DNA of 43,963 bases from a virus: the IMG/VR virus record IMGVR_UViG_3300028829_006752, positions 1-43,963 of that record; one strand, given 5' to 3'. The translations under genes and the position numbers were made by a program. Shown here in pieces: positions 1 to 43,963 of the stretch. Every line of letters starts with the position of its first letter. Positions within the stretch are counted from its first letter, which is position 1. The notes beneath the pieces are model-generated. The model worked only from the letters and a program-made list of their open reading frames with translations, was not told where the DNA came from and searched no databases.

Positions 1-243
1 TTGAAGGGACTGGAGAATTGTATTAATCTTAAGTGGCTCGACATCTCTAATACACAAATCAAATCTTTGAAGGGACTAGAGAATTGTATTAATCTTAAGT
101 GGATTCACATCTCTAATACACAAATTACATCTTTGAAGGGACTAGAGAGCTGTGTTAATCTTAAGGTGCTTAAACTCTCTAATACACAAATTACATCTTT
201 GAAGGGACTAGAGAGCTGTGTTAATCTGGTGGATATTACACTC
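1..243 (+). repeat. Left copy of the 243-bp terminal direct repeat (other copy 43721-43963)
   Basis: Bases 1-243 match 43721-43963 at 241 of 243 positions. The only differences are at 135-136 (GA) versus 43855-43856 (AG), which change one Lys codon to Glu in an LRR unit. The overlap keeps reading frame (81 codons). This is the signature of a circular assembly or circularly permuted DNA closed inside a repeat gene. Because the gene itself is repetitive, some of the match could instead reflect homogenised units. Confidence 0.75.
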
Positions 244-639
244 TCTAATACACAAATCAAATCTTTGAAGGGACTGGAGAATTGTATTAATCTTGGGTGG
301 ATTCACATCTCTAATACACAAATTACATCTTTGAAGGGACTAGAGAGCTGTGTTAATCTTAAGGTGCTTAAACTCTCTAATACACAAATTACATCTTTGA
401 AGGGACTGGAGAGCTGTGTTAATCTGGTGGATATTAAACTCTCTAATACACAAATCAAATCTTTGAAGGGACTGGAGAATTGTATTAATCTTGGGTGGCT
501 CGACATCTCTAATACACAAATCAAATCTTTGAAGGGACTAGAGAATTGTATTAATCTGGTGGATATTACACTCTCTAATACACAAATTACATCTTTGAAG
601 GGACTGGAGAACTGTATTAATCTTCAAATATATAAATAA
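1..639 (+). CDS. Leucine-rich-repeat protein, C-terminal part (continues from the right end of the window)
   Basis: The frame is open from the first base, so the true start lies outside this edge; the gene very probably begins at 43451. It holds nine 22-residue LRR units of pattern LKGLE(N/S)C(I/V)NLxxLxLSNTQI(K/T)S and a short C-terminal cap ending QIYK. The framework is almost invariant at DNA level (66-bp period). Only the three exposed x positions of LxxLxL change, giving KW-D, KW-H, KV-K, VD-T, GW-H, VD-K and GW-D. No signal peptide or catalytic domain is visible. LRR solenoids are binding scaffolds, so a role in binding a host or competitor protein is inferred. After joining through the 243-bp terminal overlap the protein would have 302 residues. 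Repeat number may be wrong if the assembler collapsed units. Confidence 0.85.
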   Translation: MKGLENCINLKWLDISNTQIKSLKGLENCINLKWIHISNTQITSLKGLESCVNLKVLKLSNTQITSLKGLESCVNLVDITLSNTQIKSLKGLENCINLGWIHISNTQITSLKGLESCVNLKVLKLSNTQITSLKGLESCVNLVDIKLSNTQIKSLKGLENCINLGWLDISNTQIKSLKGLENCINLVDITLSNTQITSLKGLENCINLQIYK

Positions 640-649
640 TAAAAATATA

Positions 650-669
650 ATGAACTTATTTTACTCCAG
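650..669 (+). repeat. 20-bp direct repeat flanking the LRR gene (partner 43386-43405)
   Basis: Twenty identical bases occur on both sides of the LRR gene. The neighbouring A/T-rich stretches (about 622-649 and 43424-43453) also resemble each other. In the circular form the two copies bracket the whole LRR gene. Confidence 0.8.
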
Positions 670-951: not shown

Positions 952-1469
952 ATGAAAATACTGAAAATACTTTCACTCTTTGACGGGATATCTGCCCTAC
1001 AATTTGCACTAAACAACTGCGGAATAAAAGACTATAAATATTAAACGAAGTGAAACCTAAATATTTTTTGGCGGAAAATGTGGCTAGTATGAGTAAGGAA
1101 ATGAAAAATTTAATAACTAGCCATTTATACTGGAACTCAATTGAAAAAAAACAAAGGAGTATGGTTGCAATACCAATGCCAACGGTATATATTGAAGATA
1201 TTCAAAAAAAAGATAATATTCATTTCTACGAAAAAGAGGAGCTATTCCATGTGTACGATGGTGAGTTTCATCTTATAAAGGCATCTAAATTTCCACCAAA
1301 ATTTGAAGGTATATTTTTTCAGGTAAGAAAACTAACGCCCAACGAATGTGCAAGACTTCAAGGGTTTCCTGATGATTACCATGATAGCGTTTCAAACACG
1401 CAAGCTTATAAATGCTATGGCAATTCATTCACTGTTCCAATTATAGAACATATTTTAAAACATTTATGA
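952..1469 (+). pseudogene. Decayed cytosine-C5 DNA methyltransferase (internal deletion plus frameshift)
   Basis: Codons 952-1044 read MKILKILSLFDGISALQFAL..., the SAM-binding motif I start of a C5-methyltransferase, and then stop. In another frame from about 1041 the sequence resumes as LNEVKPKYFLAENVASM (motif VI, ENV). It runs to motif IX (RKLTPNECARLQGFPDDY) and motif X (YGNSFTVPIIEHI), ending at 1469. The segment with the catalytic PCQ loop (motif IV) is absent at the junction near 1040, and the motif VIII/target-recognition part looks shortened. An intact enzyme of this family is usually about 300 residues or more; about 170 codons remain. Loss of the nucleophile and of frame means no methyltransferase activity is expected. 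The 3' fragment could be translated from GTG at 1050. Confidence 0.8.
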
Positions 1470-2242: not shown

Positions 2243-3187
2243 ATGTCTTTTGAAATAGCAAAAAGAGAAGCAGTTCCATTGATGATTGCTCTTTCTGGTC
2301 CATCTGGATCAGGTAAAACATATTCTGCACTAATGATGGCGGCTGGAATATCTGGTAAAAACGGTAAGGTTGGTTTTATTGACACAGAAGCTGGAAGAGG
2401 CTCTATGTATGCCGATGATACTGATATTATTAATGTAATGCCAGATGGTAAATATTACATGCAAAAACTTACTGAACCATTTACACCGCAAAAATACATG
2501 GAGGCAATTAAGGGAGCAATTAAGTTTGGAATTACAACACTTGTGATAGACTCTACATCTCACGAATGGGAAGGTCTTGGGGGATGTCAAGACATTGCAG
2601 AAAATAATAAACTTAAAGGTCTACCCAATTGGGCTATGGCAAAAATGCAACATAAGAAATTTACAAATCTTATCACACAAGCACCAATACACATTATATT
2701 TTGTTTACGTGCAAGAGAAAAAACAGAACCAACAAAAGACCCACAAACGGGTAAGATTGTAATGGTAAACCACGGAGTTAAGCCAATACAGGAAAAGAAC
2801 TTTATGTTTGATATGACGCTGTCCATGATGTTTGATGAAGAATGCCCTGGAAAACCAAAGCTTACCAAATGTCCAAAACCATTATTACATTTATTTCATG
2901 GCAATCAAACCATTGTTACACAAAACACGGGTAGTAAGCTTAAAGAGTGGGCAGATGGTGGAGAAAGTATTGATATAAAATTACGCAATCTAAAAAGAGA
3001 ATGTAAGGAGGCGGCAATGAATGGAAATCTTGCGTTGAATGAATTTTTAAAGATCTTGCCACAAGAAGACAAGGAGCTTTTAACGAACCCATTAAACAAA
3101 GATTTCCAACTTGAAGTAAGGTCTTTAGCTGAAGAAGCAGACAGAATAACACCGACAGAAGAAGTTAAACTTTTTAACAATGAATAA
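2243..3187 (+). CDS. Sak4-like AAA/RecA-fold ATPase (phage single-strand annealing/recombination)
   Basis: A 314-residue P-loop ATPase. Walker A GPSGSGKT lies at residues 19-26, followed by FIDTEAGRGSMYADD and a Walker B-like strand TTLVIDSTSHEWEG near residues 98-111. This is the layout of phage AAA_24/Sak4 proteins, which resemble the RecA core and work with SSB in recombination and replication. The gene sits directly upstream of a Cro/CI-type gene, an SSB and a RusA resolvase, which fits. The last 8 bases overlap the next start at 3180. The Sak4 assignment is by motif and neighbourhood; a different AAA_24 role is possible. Confidence 0.82.
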   Translation: MSFEIAKREAVPLMIALSGPSGSGKTYSALMMAAGISGKNGKVGFIDTEAGRGSMYADDTDIINVMPDGKYYMQKLTEPFTPQKYMEAIKGAIKFGITTLVIDSTSHEWEGLGGCQDIAENNKLKGLPNWAMAKMQHKKFTNLITQAPIHIIFCLRAREKTEPTKDPQTGKIVMVNHGVKPIQEKNFMFDMTLSMMFDEECPGKPKLTKCPKPLLHLFHGNQTIVTQNTGSKLKEWADGGESIDIKLRNLKRECKEAAMNGNLALNEFLKILPQEDKELLTNPLNKDFQLEVRSLAEEADRITPTEEVKLFNNE

Positions 3188-6073: not shown

Positions 6074-6703
6074 TTATCTCTTAAATAAAATTCTTTTGTT
6101 TCCCAAATTACCATTAAATAAATTAACGGGAGTTATTTCTAATGGGTTTCCATACTCAATATGGCTAACATCAACTCCTTGATCTATTAAAAACAAAGCT
6201 TCAAGCCATGAACAAAATCCTCCATCAGTTTTAGGTTGTTTTATTTTTTTATCTAAAAAATCAATATCAATTCCTGACATAACCGCTAATTCTTTAGAAT
6301 AAGGAACTGCATAATATTTTTTTTCAAAAGCTTTTGCTTTAACTTTATCAACATATCTATCAATAGTTTCAATGTAACAAATACCTTGGAAGACTTTCAG
6401 CTTATTGAACAAATCATTTTGTTCCATACCTCTTTCCATTGTTGCTTCGAAAACTTTCGCAACCATTTTATTATCTTCTTCATCAAATCTGAACCTAGAG
6501 ATATGATTAACGTGATCTATTGATTTGTCACCATTAAAGAGATTTAATAATTTTGTAGCTAATAATAAAGGGCTTCTCCATACATTATGGAAGTTACAAT
6601 AATAAGAAAAATATAATATATGTATTTTATCTTTATCTAAACGATCTATCGCTGTTTGGATATTTGACTTCAAATATAATATATCTAGATCCTTTTCCAT
6701 CAC
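6074..6703 (-). CDS. Putative circularly permuted papain-like (NlpC/P60, YiiX-type) protein
   Basis: 209 residues. A His segment comes first (DHVNHISRFRF), then a Glu segment (VFEATMERG), and later the candidate nucleophile in GGFCSWLEALFLIDQG. This order, His before Cys, is typical of permuted NlpC/P60 (YiiX/LRAT-like) folds. The spacing also includes a KYYAVPYS stretch comparable to the conserved Y-D region. Predicted amidase, peptidase or acyltransferase acting on cell wall or lipid. It overlaps its upstream neighbour by four bases and lies in the host-interaction block. The family call is from motif order only. Confidence 0.55.
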   Translation of the reverse strand: MMEKDLDILYLKSNIQTAIDRLDKDKIHILYFSYYCNFHNVWRSPLLLATKLLNLFNGDKSIDHVNHISRFRFDEEDNKMVAKVFEATMERGMEQNDLFNKLKVFQGICYIETIDRYVDKVKAKAFEKKYYAVPYSKELAVMSGIDIDFLDKKIKQPKTDGGFCSWLEALFLIDQGVDVSHIEYGNPLEITPVNLFNGNLGNKRILFKR

Positions 6704-7311
6704 TCAATGTTTAGTTTTTGGTTTTTTAAATAGTTTGTTGTAAAATCATATTTGTCTATTTCCTCAATCGTAGTTAAATTATTTAAGGTATGTATATGCG
6801 TTTTGTAAATACCATAGTTAGCATTTGTAACGTTTAACATGAATATATATAACTGTCTCAATTGAACTAATGTTATGCTAATTGATCCGTCTTCGTAGAA
6901 ATATTCAAATTTAGCATCTTCCTCAGCTATTACCTTTAACTTTATTTGCTGTTCCAAATGTTGAATCTGTTCAATAATTAACTTTCTACCTTCCGTAGAT
7001 AATGATAAGACAAAGCGATTGTTTATTTTCATTTCTCTTATTTCAGGAGAAATGAAATAGTAATTGTCTAGTTCGTTAATTTTTAGTTCCTTTTTCTCCG
7101 AGATTGTAGGTTCTTTCGGTTTTTCAATATCCTCATAGATCCATTTTTTACCATTCCATTTTATAAGTTTACCATCTTTCTCATTTAATGGTTTTAAAAA
7201 CGTGGCGTTTCTAGGTAAAAGATATAGATCGTTCTCTAAAGGATCTTTTGTTGCCTTATCTGACCCAAGATAATATCCGAGATCATCAAAATTGTGTGTT
7301 AATTTTTCCAT
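6700..7311 (-). CDS. Tail fibre assembly/accessory-like protein
   Basis: 203 residues. The N-terminal half has LLPRNATFLKPLNEKDGKL followed by IKWNGKKWIYED, the pattern of short adhesin-associated proteins of the Tfa/DUF4376 kind. The C-terminal half is helical with charged heptads. It directly follows the tail fibre gene (14-base gap), where fibre chaperones or distal fibre accessory proteins sit. Exact function unproven. Confidence 0.55.
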   Translation of the reverse strand: MEKLTHNFDDLGYYLGSDKATKDPLENDLYLLPRNATFLKPLNEKDGKLIKWNGKKWIYEDIEKPKEPTISEKKELKINELDNYYFISPEIREMKINNRFVLSLSTEGRKLIIEQIQHLEQQIKLKVIAEEDAKFEYFYEDGSISITLVQLRQLYIFMLNVTNANYGIYKTHIHTLNNLTTIEEIDKYDFTTNYLKNQKLNIE

Positions 7312-7325
7312 TTTTCAATTTAAAC

Positions 7326-8243
7326 TTAAAGATATTTGATTTTGTACACAAGGGCTACGTTTTTAGGTCTAGTTTCTATATCACCAGTTGACAGGGTGGT
7401 GCTGTATCTGAAGATGTTATTCGTATAATCATCCCCAGATGTATAATCTCCAGTCCCTCCTCCTGTAATTGTACCTTCCGGTACACTATGGGTATGACTC
7501 TTAAATGCATCTGCCTGATAACTACCTAAACTTCTACTAGAAGATTTCCCTCTTATGAATCTATCCCTTAAATCTGGAAGATAAAAGTATGTTGATCCGC
7601 TACCCCAAGTATCACCTATAGCTGCATATAAATTCGCATACGTTGTTTTTGACAGAGATGCCCCATTACATTCCAAATAACCATAGGGCATTGTTGTGGA
7701 AGCATGTGCAGATATATCACCTGTGGGAACATGGAAGTTATTAACTAATTTCCAAGCATTAGAACCATTAGAAATTAACCTCAAACTACCATACGTACCC
7801 ACTATATCAAAGTAAGTTAGATTGTCCAATGTATCTGATCCAGTCCTATAGACTCTTATCTTATTTGTAGAATTAACAGAGCCTGACTCATCAATAATTA
7901 TAATCTCAGAACCCGCTTCAACAGTATTTGCGAGTGGGAGGTAGAAGCTCCTTGGAGCAGACATAGTGCCGTTTTGAGCAACAACTTTATCTGTAGCTAA
8001 AATAGTATAATTTGCATCAGAAACAGTTGTTCTTCTATCAATTCCTAGACTTGTCCTTGCTGCAGCACTATCTGCTGAACCTAAAAAAGTAACAATATCA
8101 GTAGTATATTGATCTGATATTTTAGCAAGCAGTTGAATAATTGAAACTTTTTTATCTACACTTGATTCATTTAAATGCAGATAAGCGGCATCATTAATTG
8201 TTCCTGTTTTAGCCGGTAAGGCTGATATTGAAATGGTTGTCAT
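7326..8243 (-). CDS. Tail fibre protein with phage tail collar domain
   Basis: 305 residues. The N-terminal half is beta-rich and likely attaches to the baseplate. The C-terminal half carries the collar domain: TTMPYGYLECNGASLSKTTY, then LYAAIGDTWGSGSTYFYLPD and LRDRFIRG, as in short tail fibres and Caudovirales collar proteins. It is the probable receptor-binding protein. The start ATG at 8243 is preceded only by A/T bases. Confidence 0.88.
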   Translation of the reverse strand: MTTISISALPAKTGTINDAAYLHLNESSVDKKVSIIQLLAKISDQYTTDIVTFLGSADSAAARTSLGIDRRTTVSDANYTILATDKVVAQNGTMSAPRSFYLPLANTVEAGSEIIIIDESGSVNSTNKIRVYRTGSDTLDNLTYFDIVGTYGSLRLISNGSNAWKLVNNFHVPTGDISAHASTTMPYGYLECNGASLSKTTYANLYAAIGDTWGSGSTYFYLPDLRDRFIRGKSSSRSLGSYQADAFKSHTHSVPEGTITGGGTGDYTSGDDYTNNIFRYSTTLSTGDIETRPKNVALVYKIKYL

Positions 8244-31792: not shown

Positions 31793-32866
31793 TTATATAT
31801 TACAAAATATTTTCTCTTTTAAACAATTTGACATTAAAGAATACTTTCTTTCATATGATTCAATGCTTCCGACTTCACGCCAAGCGTCATTGTGGTTTGT
31901 GTACTCGGATATATAAACTTTGATGTTCCTTTCTTTCATTTCTTCTACCCACGCATCAAATCTTTCAAAATCAAATTCTACATTGTTATATGCTTTTGTG
32001 TTAATATATGGCGGATCGCAGTAAACTATAGAATTGGGCTGAAATTCAAACTCCCAGTAGTTTTTGCAAGTAAAGGTAATATTGCTTTCAAGTTGTTGAA
32101 GTCGCTCCAAACTCTCCAACCTCTCCAAACCCTGCAAACCCTGCAAACCGTGAATGAAATTTAATTTTATACTTTCCTCATTTTTTAATTCATTTTCATT
32201 TAAGTATTTACACCTCTCTACCATTGACTTCTTTTTTATAGCCTCATACTCTTCTTGCGTGCAATACAAATAAGGACTGTTACGCTTGCCAAAAGGTTTA
32301 TTGCGTGTATTTTTCAATATGTAATTTCTTAAAAATAGACGGCGTTCCCTTTGATTTTCAATATCATATACTTTGCTAAAATTTTGCCAATCATCCGTTT
32401 TACCAATTAATTCAAGAAAATTCTTGCCAGCATCCAAACACTTATTTACAACAACAAAATGAAATTGTTTTTTATAATTCTCAATATCTTTGCCAAACAA
32501 ATAACTATTTCCACTATTCCCAAACGACCAGCAACGGCGTATAAGTTCACCATACCAATCTTGTCTTTCTTTTAATTCAAAAAATTCTTCTCTTGAAATC
32601 CATTTATATAAAATCTCACTTTCAATTCCCTCTTTCAATTTTTTATGTAAATCAATAAGAGGTTGCTGTATGTCATTCATAACAACCTCGTAGCCTTGTT
32701 GAAAGAAATAATAACCAACAGCACCTCCGCCACAAAACAAATCGTATATTTTAGTAATATTGGTTTCCGCAAAAAGACAATTTGTGTTTCCCAAGTCTTT
32801 GTTTATAATTTCAAATATCTTTTTAACAATGGCTTGCTTTGAGCCTTGATATGGTATTCTATACAT
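31793..32866 (-). CDS. Dam-type adenine-N6 DNA methyltransferase, copy 1
   Basis: About 357 residues. SAM motif I is IYDLFCGGGAVGYYF and the catalytic motif is SIVYCDPPYIN, the D12-class order (FxGxG then DPPY). It starts at the ATG at 32866, eight bases inside the end of copy 2 (an in-frame GTG precedes it). Most of the sequence is nearly identical to copy 2, implying recent duplication. The linker before the SNITF segment is a short Leu/Gln/Glu repeat (LQGLQGLERLESLERLQQ). Target sequence unknown. Likely protects phage DNA from restriction. Confidence 0.9.
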   Translation of the reverse strand: MYRIPYQGSKQAIVKKIFEIINKDLGNTNCLFAETNITKIYDLFCGGGAVGYYFFQQGYEVVMNDIQQPLIDLHKKLKEGIESEILYKWISREEFFELKERQDWYGELIRRCWSFGNSGNSYLFGKDIENYKKQFHFVVVNKCLDAGKNFLELIGKTDDWQNFSKVYDIENQRERRLFLRNYILKNTRNKPFGKRNSPYLYCTQEEYEAIKKKSMVERCKYLNENELKNEESIKLNFIHGLQGLQGLERLESLERLQQLESNITFTCKNYWEFEFQPNSIVYCDPPYINTKAYNNVEFDFERFDAWVEEMKERNIKVYISEYTNHNDAWREVGSIESYERKYSLMSNCLKEKIFCNI

Positions 32867-34028
32867 CACTCAATATATTACAAAATATTTGCTCTTGTTT
32901 TTTTACTTTTTCTTTTAAACAATTTGACATTGAAGAATACTTTTCAATACTGCCAACCTCACGCCAAGCGTTGTTATGGTTTGTGTATTCGCTTATATAC
33001 ACACGCACGCCCTTTTGTTTCATTTCTTCTACCCACGCATCAAATTTTTCAAAATCAAAGATTTGCTTGTTGTATCTCAAGGTGTTAATATACGGTGGAT
33101 CGCAGTAAACAATAGAATTGGGCTGAAATTCAAACTCCCAGTAGTTTTTGCAAGTAAAGGTAATATTGCTTTCAAGTTGTTGAAGTTGTTGAAGTGGTTG
33201 AAGTGGTTCAAGTTGTTCAAGTCGTTGAAGTTGTTCAAGTTGTTGAAGTTGCTCAAGTGGTTCAAGTCGCTCAAGGTGTTGAAATTGTTGAAGTCGCTCA
33301 AGTTGTTGAAGTCGTTGTTCAAGTTGTTCAAGTCCTCTGTCATTTTTCAATTGGCTTTCATTCAAATATTTACACTTTTCCAACATTGAATAATCTTTTA
33401 TAACTTCATACTCTTCTTGCGTACAGTATAAATAAGCATTGTTATGCTTGCCAAAGCGTTTATTGCGTGTATTTTTCAATATGTAATTTCTTAAAAATAG
33501 ACGGCGTTCCCTTTGATTTTCAATATCATATACTTTGCTAAAATTTTGCCAATCATCCGTTTTACCAATCATTTCAAGCCACTCCTTGCCAGCTTCTTTG
33601 CATTTATTTACAACTACAAAATGCCCTTGTTTTTTATAATTCTCAATATCTTTGCCAAACAAATAACTATTTCCACTATTCCCAAACGACCAGCAAAGGC
33701 GTATAAGTTGACCATACCAATCTTGTCTTTCTTTTAATTCAACAAACTCCTCCCCTGAAATCCATTTATATAAAAGCTCTTCGTTAATTCCTTCTTGCAA
33801 TTTCTTATGTAAGTCAATCAAAGGTTGCTGTATATCGTTCATAACAACTTGAAAACCTTGTTGATAAAAATAATAACCAACTGCACCACCACCACAAAAC
33901 AAATCGTATATTTTAGTAATATTGTTTTCCGCAAAAAGACAATTTGTGTTTCCCAAGTCTTTGTTTATAATTTCAAATATCTTTTTAACAATGGCTTGCT
34001 TTGAGCCTTGATATGGTATTCTATACAT
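32859..34028 (-). CDS. Dam-type adenine-N6 DNA methyltransferase, copy 2
   Basis: About 389 residues, with the same motifs as copy 1 (DLFCGGGAVG and SIVYCDPPYIN). The N-terminal 60 residues differ from copy 1 at only a few positions. The central linker is a long three-residue-periodic run (LEQLQQLERLQQFQH... ), encoded by a 9-bp minisatellite and longer than in copy 1. The C-terminus adds VKKQEQ and ILSDV, and its stop overlaps copy 1. Co-translation with copy 1 is likely. Confidence 0.9.
   Translation of the reverse strand: MYRIPYQGSKQAIVKKIFEIINKDLGNTNCLFAENNITKIYDLFCGGGAVGYYFYQQGFQVVMNDIQQPLIDLHKKLQEGINEELLYKWISGEEFVELKERQDWYGQLIRLCWSFGNSGNSYLFGKDIENYKKQGHFVVVNKCKEAGKEWLEMIGKTDDWQNFSKVYDIENQRERRLFLRNYILKNTRNKRFGKHNNAYLYCTQEEYEVIKDYSMLEKCKYLNESQLKNDRGLEQLEQRLQQLERLQQFQHLERLEPLEQLQQLEQLQRLEQLEPLQPLQQLQQLESNITFTCKNYWEFEFQPNSIVYCDPPYINTLRYNKQIFDFEKFDAWVEEMKQKGVRVYISEYTNHNNAWREVGSIEKYSSMSNCLKEKVKKQEQIFCNILSDV
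33173..33335 (-). repeat. 9-bp minisatellite coding a Leu/Gln/Glu linker in Dam copy 2
   Basis: About 17 degenerate copies of GTTGAAGTT-like 9-mers (plus-strand reading) encode LxxLxx periodicity. The equivalent place in copy 1 (about 32087-32150) has a shorter, diverged version. Because units are multiples of three bases, copy-number changes alter linker length without breaking frame. Confidence 0.85.
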
Positions 34029-34053
34029 CACTCAATTTTAATTAATTAAGATA

Positions 34054-39396: not shown

Positions 39397-40431
39397 ATGG
39401 ACGCACAACAGCAAGTATTTTTACGCAAAGAGCAAATACCATTTACAATGGTTGCTAACGCTATTATTTTTGATAGCAGGATTTCAAGTAAGGCAAAATT
39501 TTATTATGTTTATTTGTCAAGTAAGCCCGACGCATGGAAATTTCATACAAATTGCATTGTAAAAGAAATTAAAGAAGGTAGAGATGCTTTTTATAATGGA
39601 TTAAAAGAGCTTATTGAGTTTGGATACCTTGAAAGGCAACAAATCAAAGAAAATGGAAAATTCAAACATACAGACTATATCTTAAAAATACCGTATACGG
39701 AAAACACGGACACGGAAAAGCCGTATACGGAAAACACGGACTATAATAATAAAGACTTAAATAAGAATGATAAAAGTAATAAAGATATAAAAGACACCGC
39801 AAGCGGTTCTCCTCTTTCTCAATTTGAAGAGTTTTGGAATGAATACGGGAAAAAAGTAAAAAAACCAAAAGCGGAGGAGAGTTACAAGCATGCACTCAAA
39901 ACAAAAGACACCACTTTTCAAAGTATAATGAAGGGAGTTAAAAAGTACAATGAGTATTTGAATGTTGCAATATGGCTTGAAAGGGCAGACCCTACCACTT
40001 GGTTAAATGGTCAACGCTGGAATGATGATTATGATGATTTGATAAAACAAGAGTATAAGAAGAATGGAAAAACACCACCAATTCAACAGAAAAGCCCCGA
40101 GAAGCAACAAGAGGAGGTAAGAATGAAGGAAGACGCACAAAAGAAGCGTGAAGGCGTTTTAAGGTTTTTAAACGACAATGAGACAGAATTTATGAACCAT
40201 ATTAAGGAAAGCTTGAAAACAGATTATTTTACAAACCCACTCCATCATTTCTGGATTAATGATCTTGTTTTTTGTTATAGAGATAAAGTTGCATATTTGG
40301 GCTTTACCCAGCAAAAACATATTGACGCAGTGGAGCGAAATTTTACAAAAATTGAACAAATTATTGTTCGTGCATTGAGTGTATGTGATGAATTGAAGGC
40401 GGAAAAAATAGAATTGAAATTAATTGATTAA
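39397..40431 (+). CDS. Replication initiator protein (lambda O/HTH_36-like)
   Basis: 344 residues. The N-terminal winged-helix domain (FTMVANAIIFDSRISSKAKF and the recognition region KEGRDAFYNGLKELIEFGYL) spans residues 1-98. A polar linker (PYTENTDTEKPYTENTDYNN) coincides with iteron-like repeats in the DNA. The C-terminal region begins FEEFWNEYGKKVKKPKAEES and has TTWLNGQRWNDDYDD, common in phage O/DnaT-like replication proteins. It probably binds the origin within its own gene and recruits host helicase; no helicase gene is visible in the window. Confidence 0.83.
   Translation: MDAQQQVFLRKEQIPFTMVANAIIFDSRISSKAKFYYVYLSSKPDAWKFHTNCIVKEIKEGRDAFYNGLKELIEFGYLERQQIKENGKFKHTDYILKIPYTENTDTEKPYTENTDYNNKDLNKNDKSNKDIKDTASGSPLSQFEEFWNEYGKKVKKPKAEESYKHALKTKDTTFQSIMKGVKKYNEYLNVAIWLERADPTTWLNGQRWNDDYDDLIKQEYKKNGKTPPIQQKSPEKQQEEVRMKEDAQKKREGVLRFLNDNETEFMNHIKESLKTDYFTNPLHHFWINDLVFCYRDKVAYLGFTQQKHIDAVERNFTKIEQIIVRALSVCDELKAEKIELKLID
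39691..39790 (+). other. Predicted replication origin: iterons plus A/T-rich tract inside the initiator gene
   Basis: The 20-bp block CCGTATACGGAAAACACGGA occurs at 39691-39710 and 39721-39740. ACGGAAAA recurs at 39697, 39712 and 39727, exactly 15 bases apart. Each 20-mer starts with the perfect palindrome CCGTATACGG. Immediately downstream, about 39741-39790 is almost only A/T with few G/C, like a DNA unwinding element. The layout (wing-helix domain, iterons, A/T tract within one gene) mirrors lambda O/ori. Confidence 0.68.
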
Positions 40432-41047: not shown

Positions 41048-41248
41048 ATGTCAACTATAAGTCAAATTGTACTCACAAAATCTTGGGACAATAAAAGTTA
41101 TTTAGGAACAATATCGATAAATGGCAACCAATATGAATTAAATGAAAAAATGTGTAATGAAGTACTGGAATCTATTTTTGTGACAAATGCTTATAAACAT
41201 GTGCAAAAAACAGATGATTTTTTTAACACAACAATTACTAACTCTTAA
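41048..41248 (+). CDS. Small protein of unknown function (66 aa)
   Basis: MSTISQIVLTKSWDNKSYLG, then beta strands and a short helical end. It lies directly downstream of a promoter and seven bases upstream of the exonuclease. Probably an early accessory protein. Not recognised. Confidence 0.6.
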   Translation: MSTISQIVLTKSWDNKSYLGTISINGNQYELNEKMCNEVLESIFVTNAYKHVQKTDDFFNTTITNS

Positions 41249-41255
41249 TTTAAGT

Positions 41256-42320
41256 ATGAAAGAAGGAATATATTTTAACATGCCAGACTCCGAATATCAC
41301 TCTATACCATATTTTAGCAGATCAATGGTGCAATATGTAAATATGGGGGCAGAGGAAGCATGGCATCAAGCACCAATAAACCCAAACAAAGCATTAAATG
41401 AAAGTAGTTATGCAATGGACTTAGGAACGGCTATGCACTCAATGATACTTGAACCTGAAATCTTCAATCAACTCTATATTAGAAGACCAAAAAAAGAAGA
41501 CTACACTAATAAAATCATTTTAGATAAAGTTAGCGAGTTACAAGATTTTTTAGAATCTGTTGGCGAGAAAAAAACGGGTAGAAAAGATGATTTAATTGGG
41601 CGTGCAATACCATATCTAAACCCGAACACACATATAGTGTGGGAAGGTGAGATGCATAAATTTGATACAGAGTTACAGTTGCGTGGCTGTAAAGAGCTGA
41701 ATGATAACGAGATTGAAATATTAAATGCGGTGCAGGACAATATTAACAACACAAGCCAAATCAAACAAGTATTTCAAAATGGCTATCCAGAGGTTACGAT
41801 TATTTGGAAAGATGAGGAAAGTGGCGTTATGTGTAAATGTCGCCTTGATTATGTAAGACCCGAGGCAATTGGTGAATTAAAAACTTTTAGCCTTAAATAC
41901 AAGAAAAATCTTACAAAGTTATTATGTGATATTATAAATTTTGAAAGATATAATATGCAATTTGCTATTTACCATCAGGCGTTATCAAATATCATCAAAA
42001 AAATTAATGCAAAGAAAGCAGAGGTTTTTGGCGATGTAGACGCTGAATGGTTAGACAAATTCTTGCAAAAGCCCAATAAACAATTTCTTATGGTTTTTGT
42101 TAGAACACAAGCCCCTTATCAAGTGAGGTGTATTGAGTTAGAACAATCATCAACCGTAGGTGCAACAGATAATGAATACTTTACACAAGGATATACTGCC
42201 TTTCGTAACGCAATAAATCTCTATGCAGAGTATTTAAAAAAGCCCACACCATGGAAAGAGGAAAAAGAAATTATTACTCTTTCCGATGAAGATGTGCCAA
42301 ATATTATTTTTCAAAATTAA
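41256..42320 (+). CDS. PD-(D/E)XK exonuclease, RecE/DUF3799-like
   Basis: 354 residues from ATG 41256 (MKEGIYFNMPDSEYHSIPYF). The open frame extends to 41187, but homologues begin at this Met and the extension overlaps the previous gene. SRSMVQYVNMGAEEAWH and AMDLGTAMHSMILEPE are the family N-terminal motifs. The nuclease core has CRLDYVRPEAIGELKTFSLK (D...E-x-K), then NMQFAIYHQAL. A 5'-3' exonuclease supplying single strands to the Sak4/SSB pair is the likely role. Confidence 0.87.
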   Translation: MKEGIYFNMPDSEYHSIPYFSRSMVQYVNMGAEEAWHQAPINPNKALNESSYAMDLGTAMHSMILEPEIFNQLYIRRPKKEDYTNKIILDKVSELQDFLESVGEKKTGRKDDLIGRAIPYLNPNTHIVWEGEMHKFDTELQLRGCKELNDNEIEILNAVQDNINNTSQIKQVFQNGYPEVTIIWKDEESGVMCKCRLDYVRPEAIGELKTFSLKYKKNLTKLLCDIINFERYNMQFAIYHQALSNIIKKINAKKAEVFGDVDAEWLDKFLQKPNKQFLMVFVRTQAPYQVRCIELEQSSTVGATDNEYFTQGYTAFRNAINLYAEYLKKPTPWKEEKEIITLSDEDVPNIIFQN

Positions 42321-42334
42321 CTTTTACAAAATGT

Positions 42335-42883
42335 ATGAAAAAATATCAAATAATATATGCTGATCCGCCATGGCAATATAGCGACAAAGCAAAGCCTCGC
42401 GGTGGTGCAGAAAAACACTACAAAACAATTTCTACACAGGATATTTGTAATCTTGGTGTAAAAGATATAAAAACAGATGATGCAATGTGCTTTATGTGGG
42501 CAACTTTTCCAAACATTGATCAAGCGTTGCAAGTTATGCAATCTTGGGGCTTTGTATATAAAACCGCTGCGTTCGTTTGGATTAAAAAAAACAAAAAAAG
42601 CAATACTAATTTTTGGGGAATGGGTGCATACACAAGGGCAAATGCTGAAATATGCTTGCTCGGTATTAGCAAAAATACAAAAGCAAAAACAATGGTCATT
42701 GCACACAATATACATCAGGTCATTGAAAGACCAATAGAAAAACACAGTAAAAAGCCCGATTGTGTGCGTGAAAAGATTGTTGAATTGCTTGGAGACTTAC
42801 CACGAGTTGAGTTATTTGCACGACAAAGGGCAGAGGGTTGGGACGCATTTGGCAATGAAATTGAAAACAGTATCAACTTATAA
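42335..42883 (+). CDS. MT-A70-type adenine DNA methyltransferase
   Basis: 182 residues. Catalytic motif IIYADPPWQYSD, then HYKTISTQDICNLGVKDI, CFMWATFPNIDQAL, a substrate region VWIKKNKKSN and a C-terminal SAM-binding segment KKPDCVREKIVELLGDL, with RVELFARQRAEGWDAFGNE. A complete MT-A70 enzyme. With the two Dam proteins it gives three intact adenine methyltransferases. Target unknown. Confidence 0.93.
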   Translation: MKKYQIIYADPPWQYSDKAKPRGGAEKHYKTISTQDICNLGVKDIKTDDAMCFMWATFPNIDQALQVMQSWGFVYKTAAFVWIKKNKKSNTNFWGMGAYTRANAEICLLGISKNTKAKTMVIAHNIHQVIERPIEKHSKKPDCVREKIVELLGDLPRVELFARQRAEGWDAFGNEIENSINL

Positions 42884-43165: not shown

Positions 43166-43411
43166 ATGAAAAACGCTCTAAACTTTTGCATCCTAGTGGG
43201 AATAGGATGTCTAATATTATTCATAATGCTATGGAGAGAAATATTAATTATTTCATTGTTAATATTGGCTGTTTTGTTTTTATATTCAATTAACGGCGAA
43301 TGCACGATTCAAAAAATGCCATCTAACTGTGCCTTTGTTTACAGCGAAAATGGCATAAAAACAAATCAAATTATGTGTGCGGACGATGAACTTATTTTAC
43401 TCCAGCCATGA
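43166..43411 (+). CDS. Small membrane protein with two transmembrane segments (81 aa)
   Basis: From ATG 43166: MKNALNFCILVGIGCLILFI and ILIISLLILAVLFLYSI are the two membrane spans. A polar Cys-containing tail follows (CTIQKMPSNCAFVY, ICADDELILLQP-like). The frame is open to 43133, but the closer ATG avoids a 23-base overlap with the acidic ORF. It is co-directional with the LRR gene, so the two may act together; untested. Confidence 0.65.
   Translation: MKNALNFCILVGIGCLILFIMLWREILIISLLILAVLFLYSINGECTIQKMPSNCAFVYSENGIKTNQIMCADDELILLQP
43386..43405 (+). repeat. 20-bp direct repeat flanking the LRR gene (partner 650-669)
   Basis: Identical to 650-669. Here it encodes the end of the small membrane protein; the other copy lies just after the LRR stop. 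Confidence 0.8.
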
Positions 43412-43440
43412 AAGACGATGAACTTAAAATATATAACTAA
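43408..43440 (+). CDS. Leader-size ORF (10 aa) before the LRR gene
   Basis: ATGA overlap with the previous stop, then MKDDELKIYN. It ends 10 bases before the LRR start. May only be a translational bridge. Confidence 0.2.
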   Translation: MKDDELKIYN

Positions 43441-43450
43441 TAAAAATAAA

Positions 43451-43963
43451 ATGCAAATTATAGACTGTAAAAATTTAACTGGACTTGATACTAGATACAA
43501 AAGATACAAAAACTATGCAGGAGTGGTAAGGTTAATAAACTGTGTTAATCTGGTGGATATTAAACTCTCTAATACACAAATTACATCTTTAGAGGGACTA
43601 GAGAGCTGTGTTAATCTTAAGGTGCTTAAACTCTCTAATACACAAATTACATCTTTGAAGGGACTAGAGAGCTGTGTTAATCTGGTGGATATTACACTCT
43701 CTAATACACAAATTACATCTTTGAAGGGACTGGAGAATTGTATTAATCTTAAGTGGCTCGACATCTCTAATACACAAATCAAATCTTTGAAGGGACTAGA
43801 GAATTGTATTAATCTTAAGTGGATTCACATCTCTAATACACAAATTACATCTTTAGAGGGACTAGAGAGCTGTGTTAATCTTAAGGTGCTTAAACTCTCT
43901 AATACACAAATTACATCTTTGAAGGGACTAGAGAGCTGTGTTAATCTGGTGGATATTACACTC
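43451..43963 (+). CDS. Leucine-rich-repeat protein, N-terminal part (continues at the left end of the window)
   Basis: From ATG 43451: MQIIDCKNLTGLDTRYKRYK, then a unique N-cap (NYAGVVRLINCVNLVDIKL) followed by 22-residue LRR units starting at 43589, 43655, 43721, 43787, 43853 and 43919. Two units have LEGLESC instead of LKGLESC. There is no signal peptide, so it is probably cytoplasmic or virion-associated. The last 243 bases overlap bases 1-243, giving a predicted 302-residue protein in the circular genome. The gene is the best candidate here for rapid, repeat-based change of binding specificity. Confidence 0.88.
   Translation, partial: MQIIDCKNLTGLDTRYKRYKNYAGVVRLINCVNLVDIKLSNTQITSLEGLESCVNLKVLKLSNTQITSLKGLESCVNLVDITLSNTQITSLKGLENCINLKWLDISNTQIKSLKGLENCINLKWIHISNTQITSLEGLESCVNLKVLKLSNTQITSLKGLESCVNLVDITL
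43721..43963 (+). repeat. Right copy of the 243-bp terminal direct repeat (other copy 1-243)
   Basis: See the left copy. Differences are only at 43855-43856, inside an LRR unit. In frame with the left end, supporting circular closure here. Confidence 0.75.

Follow-up and report, generated by a model that had tools for sequence, protein, structure and literature searches.

A homogeneous LRR gene in the early region of a tailed-phage contig, with signs of growth by block duplication

Lamprey VLRs, to which the initial annotation of this locus drew a parallel, are built by somatic assembly of cassettes from a genomic bank and combine concave-face variation with a constant LRR framework. Closer in unit and fold are the SDS22/internalin-type LRR proteins (Pfam LRR_4), which are solenoids of 22-residue units with the motif LxxLxLxx(N/T)xI. 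In bacteria, the lgr LRRs of Protochlamydia have been multiplied by adjacent duplication of DNA blocks that are multiples of the repeat, a process ascribed to recombination in the published model (PMC2216083), and in Flavobacterium psychrophilum the number of LRR genes varies among strains, a variation resolved only by long reads (PMC8400371). The best viral structural matches are LRR families of entomopoxviruses and giant viruses (Amsacta moorei AMVITR01 and AMV005, 44-48% identity); these are multigene families of eukaryotic viruses, and the likeness may be one of shared consensus only.

The gene described here shares the 22-residue unit, motif and solenoid of the SDS22/internalin class, but its unit DNA is far more homogeneous, a cysteine replaces one core leucine in each unit, there is no cell-wall anchor or partner domain, and it is phage-borne. 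In contrast, the lgr genes are chromosomal and have 28-residue units, and in the F. psychrophilum cluster, also chromosomal, whole genes rather than units have multiplied. The likeness to VLRs extends to the variable concave face and constant framework but not to the cassette bank, of which this genome has none.

The window analyzed, 43,963 bp long, is an entire IMG/VR virus record, a tailed-phage contig with both ends inside one LRR gene that runs from 43451-43963 into 1-639 on the same strand and in the same frame. The 5' part (43451..43963, plus strand; Pfam LRR_4 E=3e-33) begins with an ATG at 43451 and is cut at the contig end; an alternative in-frame start lies at 43418, and the true start could be upstream of 43451. 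It encodes the N-cap MQIIDCKNLTGLDTRYKRYKNYAG, followed by units b A B C D A and a partial B. The 3' part (1..639, plus strand; E=3e-40) encodes units C D A B d A b c B, then the C-cap GLENCINLQIYK, and ends with the stop codon TAA at 637-639. In a single frame and direction, 66-bp units fill the sequence between 43529 and the contig end and continue over roughly the first 600 bases, with TRF scores of 546-1006 for the two arrays. The array first reported at 43451-43963 is therefore real, but it represents only the 5' part of the gene. Likewise, the proposal that the two ends form one gene holds for strand and frame but not for contiguity: joining the ends directly produces a unit of 45 nt, which rules out a straight join.

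The repeats themselves indicate what is missing at the break. At either end of the contig, the longest stretch that recurs elsewhere measures 134 bp: the suffix matches 43566-43699 exactly, and the prefix 43721-43854. These two segments are separated by 21 bp (43700-43720), and the same 21 bp are missing where the contig breaks. Inserting them yields a regular, in-frame array containing a 289-bp exact repeat with a period of 264 bp (four units) and no mismatch. The first copy occupies 43566..43854 (plus strand); the second is represented by its first 134 bp at 43830..43963, up to the contig end, and the final 134 bp of the second (or last) copy are found at 1..134, from the contig start. Because it accounts, without mismatch, for repeats of equal length (134 bp) at the two ends, this is the best reconstruction of the gene, which would then have 1173 nt, 390 aa and 16 units in the order b ABCD ABCD ABd Abc B. 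More generally, the gap is 21 + 264n bp, of which n = 0 is the simplest case; with n > 0, further 264-bp blocks may lie in the gap, and n = -1 corresponds to a 243-bp overlap and 12 units, at a cost of two mismatches where the 21-bp model has none. About 15 full units are read directly, and 16 is the likely number. The equal extension from both unique sides is what we would expect of a k-mer assembler stopping at an unresolved repeat, and since the contig ends reconstruct as one repeat with a gap of this form, the record probably represents a complete, circular-mapping genome that was opened at that repeat.

Each 66-bp unit encodes 22 residues with the consensus GLExCxNLxxLxLSNTQIxSLK, in which one core leucine position is occupied by the single cysteine. 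The initial annotation counted at least 15 units with a near-identical framework across the two ends, in agreement with the number read directly, and the seven concave blocks that it listed are all present: KV-K (A), VD-T (B), VD-K (b), KW-D (C), GW-D (c), KW-H (D) and GW-H (d). Within the unit, 13 of 22 codons are variable (20 nucleotide sites). Three or four amino acids occur only at positions 9, 10 and 12, the x residues of LxxLxL that form the concave face, and the other 19 columns have one or two; the chance that a random triple of columns would be the concave triple is 1/1540. Uncorrected pN/pS, computed on the 11-unit set, is 3.15 at the concave positions and 0.34 in the framework, a contrast that is a description and no test of positive selection, because other viral LRR arrays show it as well. 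Accordingly, the fractions of residue differences at exposed and other positions are 0.70/0.22, 0.80/0.35 and 0.50/0.07 in three such arrays (L160, L156 and L158, respectively) and 0.71-0.76/0.15-0.16 in the window. LRR structure itself imposes a constant framework and leaves the concave face free, and the pattern is thus a generic LRR signature, found also in other phage LRR arrays.

The order of the units carries a second signal. Among directly read units, identity is highest at lags 3 and 4 (0.90 and 0.87), as against 0.82-0.84 at lags 1, 2, 5 and 6, and the units have therefore spread as blocks of three to four. In the gap-filled model the lag-4 identity rises to 0.93, which was matched by 7 of 5000 shuffles of unit order, a figure that depends on the reconstruction. 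The units have also exchanged sequence. As was first noted, half-units occur in recombined form: AAG TGG and GGG TGG are each found with CTCGACATC and with ATTCACATC, and AAG/GGG at position 9 pairs with both CTCGAC and ATTCAC. All four gametes are present in 57 of 105 pairs of informative sites (11-unit set), which, with both half-unit pairings, indicates exchange between units. Judged from sequence, unit order is the product of block duplication and not of free cassette assembly, so the parallel with cassette assembly originally drawn does not extend to unit order. A short ancestor of about four units has probably grown by tandem duplication of 3-4-unit blocks, either through replication slippage or through homologous recombination between misaligned (unequal) copies. 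Sequence exchange among the units would then keep the framework DNA homogeneous, structural constraint would leave the concave-face residues free to differ, and unit number could drift as a by-product of repeat recombination.

Relatives of the gene are few. A strict two-unit pattern, applied to 2.9 million viral contigs, retrieved only 11 stretches. The sole convincing cap-level homologue, and the best hint of a short ancestor, is a 102-aa LRR protein (L155/L159) on contig 3300009537_003471, a tailed-phage contig with portal and Mu-F-like proteins; it has in common with the window gene the N-cap M..IIDC(K/E)N ... G(V/I)(V/I)RL.N..NL and the C-end ENC..IY. Since no close relative covering the locus was found, the ancestral unit number and the gain of the gene are deduced from this one distant homologue. 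A second contig (G018, 3300033141_004333) carries two tandem LRR genes between replication genes and the terminase (L160:15467-17056), 83% identical over about 500 bp; the second of these is fused in frame behind a short phage-type protein. An 8.3-kb copy, 100% identical to this region and including the array, is present on contig 3300033148_005429. A third (G015, 3300025121_000132) has two LRR genes near an exonuclease and a methyltransferase, opposite the tail genes, with units 87% identical. Like the window gene, the LRR genes of these three contigs lack an evident export signal and are borne by tailed-phage contigs, but they have about 3-7 units per complete gene as opposed to about 16. 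In the window, G015 and G018, the LRR genes lie near exonuclease/methyltransferase or replication genes, outside the tail modules.

Searches of IMG/VR with the LRR, thymidylate kinase and exonuclease proteins found no relatives, the relative searches found no second genome with the LRR locus, and LRR_4 was absent from 15 related records. A 15-mer framework pattern matched 56 loci, none encoding a relative, and the terminase relatives (L006, 90%; L068, 74%) are too short to reach the LRR locus. Low-identity, unannotated INPHARED matches labeled "Listeria phage" or "Enterococcus phage" (OR846xxx/OR848xxx, PQ520001) were left out because the records look like host genomic contigs. The genome scan returned one protein from a Bacteroidetes MAG (55% over 44 aa), a secreted-looking LRR protein with diverged units, and plasmids yielded only general LRR proteins of at most 36.5% identity.

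A perfect 20-bp direct repeat, ATGAACTTATTTTACTCCAG, brackets the gene. Its upstream copy (43386..43405, plus strand) overlaps the end of an ORF at 43166-43411, and its downstream copy (650..669, plus strand) starts 11 bp past the LRR stop codon. The sequence occurs just twice in the genome, even with up to 4 substitutions allowed, and none of 405 equally spaced pairs of positions elsewhere in the genome shares 20 bp. The small LRR gene of contig 3300009537_003471 is similarly surrounded by a perfect 45-bp direct repeat (L159:89-133 and 456-500), the longest direct repeat of that contig. The presence of perfect direct repeats around both genes suggests that the LRR gene is accessory and exchangeable, with recombination between short repeats as the route of gain or loss; no empty site, that is, a locus without the LRR gene, was found. 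The 45-bp repeat also places a TTGACA/TATAAT-like sequence on both sides of the gene it encloses.

In the window, the minus strand encodes the terminase, portal, head protease, major head protein, tail sheath, tape measure, baseplate and collar fibre. The LRR gene belongs to the plus-strand replication and recombination set, which includes a replication initiator (39397-40431), an exonuclease VIII-like protein (41187-42320), an MT-A70 methyltransferase (42335-42883), a thymidylate kinase (1521-2144) and a Sak4-like ATPase (2243-3187), so counterparts of the Sak4/exonuclease pair named in the initial annotation are indeed encoded. The gene thus stands amid early genes, on the strand opposite the structural genes. 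The carrier is a contractile-tailed phage, probably with a host in the Bacteroidota. Leaders without a Shine-Dalgarno motif are a Bacteroidota trait, and the motif is absent from 33 of 34 leaders in the whole window (present in one), which suggests such a host. The genome contains no tRNAs and no matches to RNA families.

Assignment to the SDS22/internalin class is supported by the unit motif LxxLxLxx(N/T)xI and by Pfam LRR_4 scores of 113-136 bits against a cut-off of 27. AlphaFold2 predicts the 1-639 part with a pLDDT of 91.6, as nine regularly spaced strands, one per 22 residues, plus a tenth at the C-cap, and the 5' part with a pLDDT of 86.8. The nearest PDB folds are human SDS22 and Listeria internalin A, with a TM-score to SDS22 of up to 0.79 when normalized by query length. 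The variable residues fall on one face, the concave one, of this confidently predicted solenoid, as the check proposed at the outset had envisaged. Read by eye, the N-terminus MQIIDCKNLTGLDTRYKRYKN has no apparent signal peptide and the C-terminus QIYK* no surface anchor, which sets the protein apart from internalins proper. The protein has no match to tail families, only to PHROGs with function not known, and none to the PADLOC models of anti-phage defence. With no visible export signal, a cysteine in every unit, an early-gene context (an indirect argument) and tail fibres elsewhere, an intracellular role is favored, and the protein is most likely a cytosolic protein-binding scaffold or inhibitor inside the infected cell, perhaps acting in host takeover or counter-defence. 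Overall, we consider it probable that the gene is an accessory gene of the early region, encoding a cytosolic LRR-only protein of the SDS22/internalin class that has grown by block duplication and serves as an intracellular binder. The broader idea that tailed phages share a small exchangeable family of early-region cytosolic LRR binders, whose concave face is here recombined as an evolving ligand for counter-defence or host takeover, is speculative and rather unlikely.

It is about equally doubtful that the gene is a neutral passenger, a recently acquired host-type LRR gene with an array expanded by slippage and no selected function. The flanking direct repeats, the rarity of phage LRRs under the one strict pattern, and other repeat expansions in the genome (a QLE array and duplicated D12 methyltransferases) are all consistent with a passenger. 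But all units preserve the reading frame, framework pN/pS is low and only the three concave positions diversify beyond two states, which together imply selection on the fold.

Somewhat less probable again is active, VLR-style diversification by the phage's own Sak4/exonuclease pair, with many array versions selected for different host molecules. The seven concave cassettes, the recombinant half-units, the pN/pS contrast and the recombination genes in the same plus-strand set all fit this explanation; however, block duplication accounts for the unit order, and other LRR arrays show the same contrast between concave face and framework. Moreover, a search of the genome against itself finds LRR DNA in the LRR gene alone, and hence no donor LRR cassettes, and the genome has no RVT_1 reverse transcriptase match, although control genomes gave matches, nor a diversity-generating retroelement. 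The two assemblies of another LRR phage that are identical over 8.3 kb, array included, also speak weakly against it. Of the suggestion that the phage varies the protein by unequal recombination, what survives is the recombination-like exchange and multiplication of units: the array can change by recombination, but the defining elements of an active diversification system (donor bank, demonstrated variants, diversifying enzyme) are lacking.

Least likely is the virion receptor-binding or surface adhesin protein implied by the first reading, since, although bacterial internalin-type LRRs are often adhesins and an LRR protein has been proposed in the tail module of one vibriophage (PMC10945359), the window protein lacks an evident export signal and has about 14-18 cysteines at one fixed repeat position, and its gene lies on the early strand, apart from the tail-collar fibre and other tail-fibre genes at 6700-8243.

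If phage LRR proteins of this kind are cytosolic, host-directed binders with a unit number that recombination lets drift, nature would offer in them a simple counterpart, open to direct test, of evolvable repeat-protein binders; should they be passengers, the locus is still a reminder that a "linear" viral contig may be a complete genome that was opened at a repeat. Arrays so homogeneous are easily overlooked in bacterial viruses, since they interrupt short-read contigs, as this one has done. The novelty that remains lies in the class, cytosolic phage LRR proteins that are rare and possibly exchangeable, and in the unusual homogeneity of the array in this member.

Several methyltransferase genes of the window have features of their own. 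Two adjacent D12-class adenine methyltransferase genes (31793-32869 and 32859-34031, minus strand) are recent tandem paralogues with exact common stretches of up to 112 bp. At 33171-33333 (minus strand), a 9-bp repeat array of about 18 copies puts a QLE/LEQ-rich tract into the second of them, another in-frame repeat expansion of this phage. At about 952-1469 (plus strand), a C5-cytosine methyltransferase is apparently broken into a short N-terminal fragment and an ORF at 1050-1469, the family match of which is limited to the C-terminal end of the enzyme.
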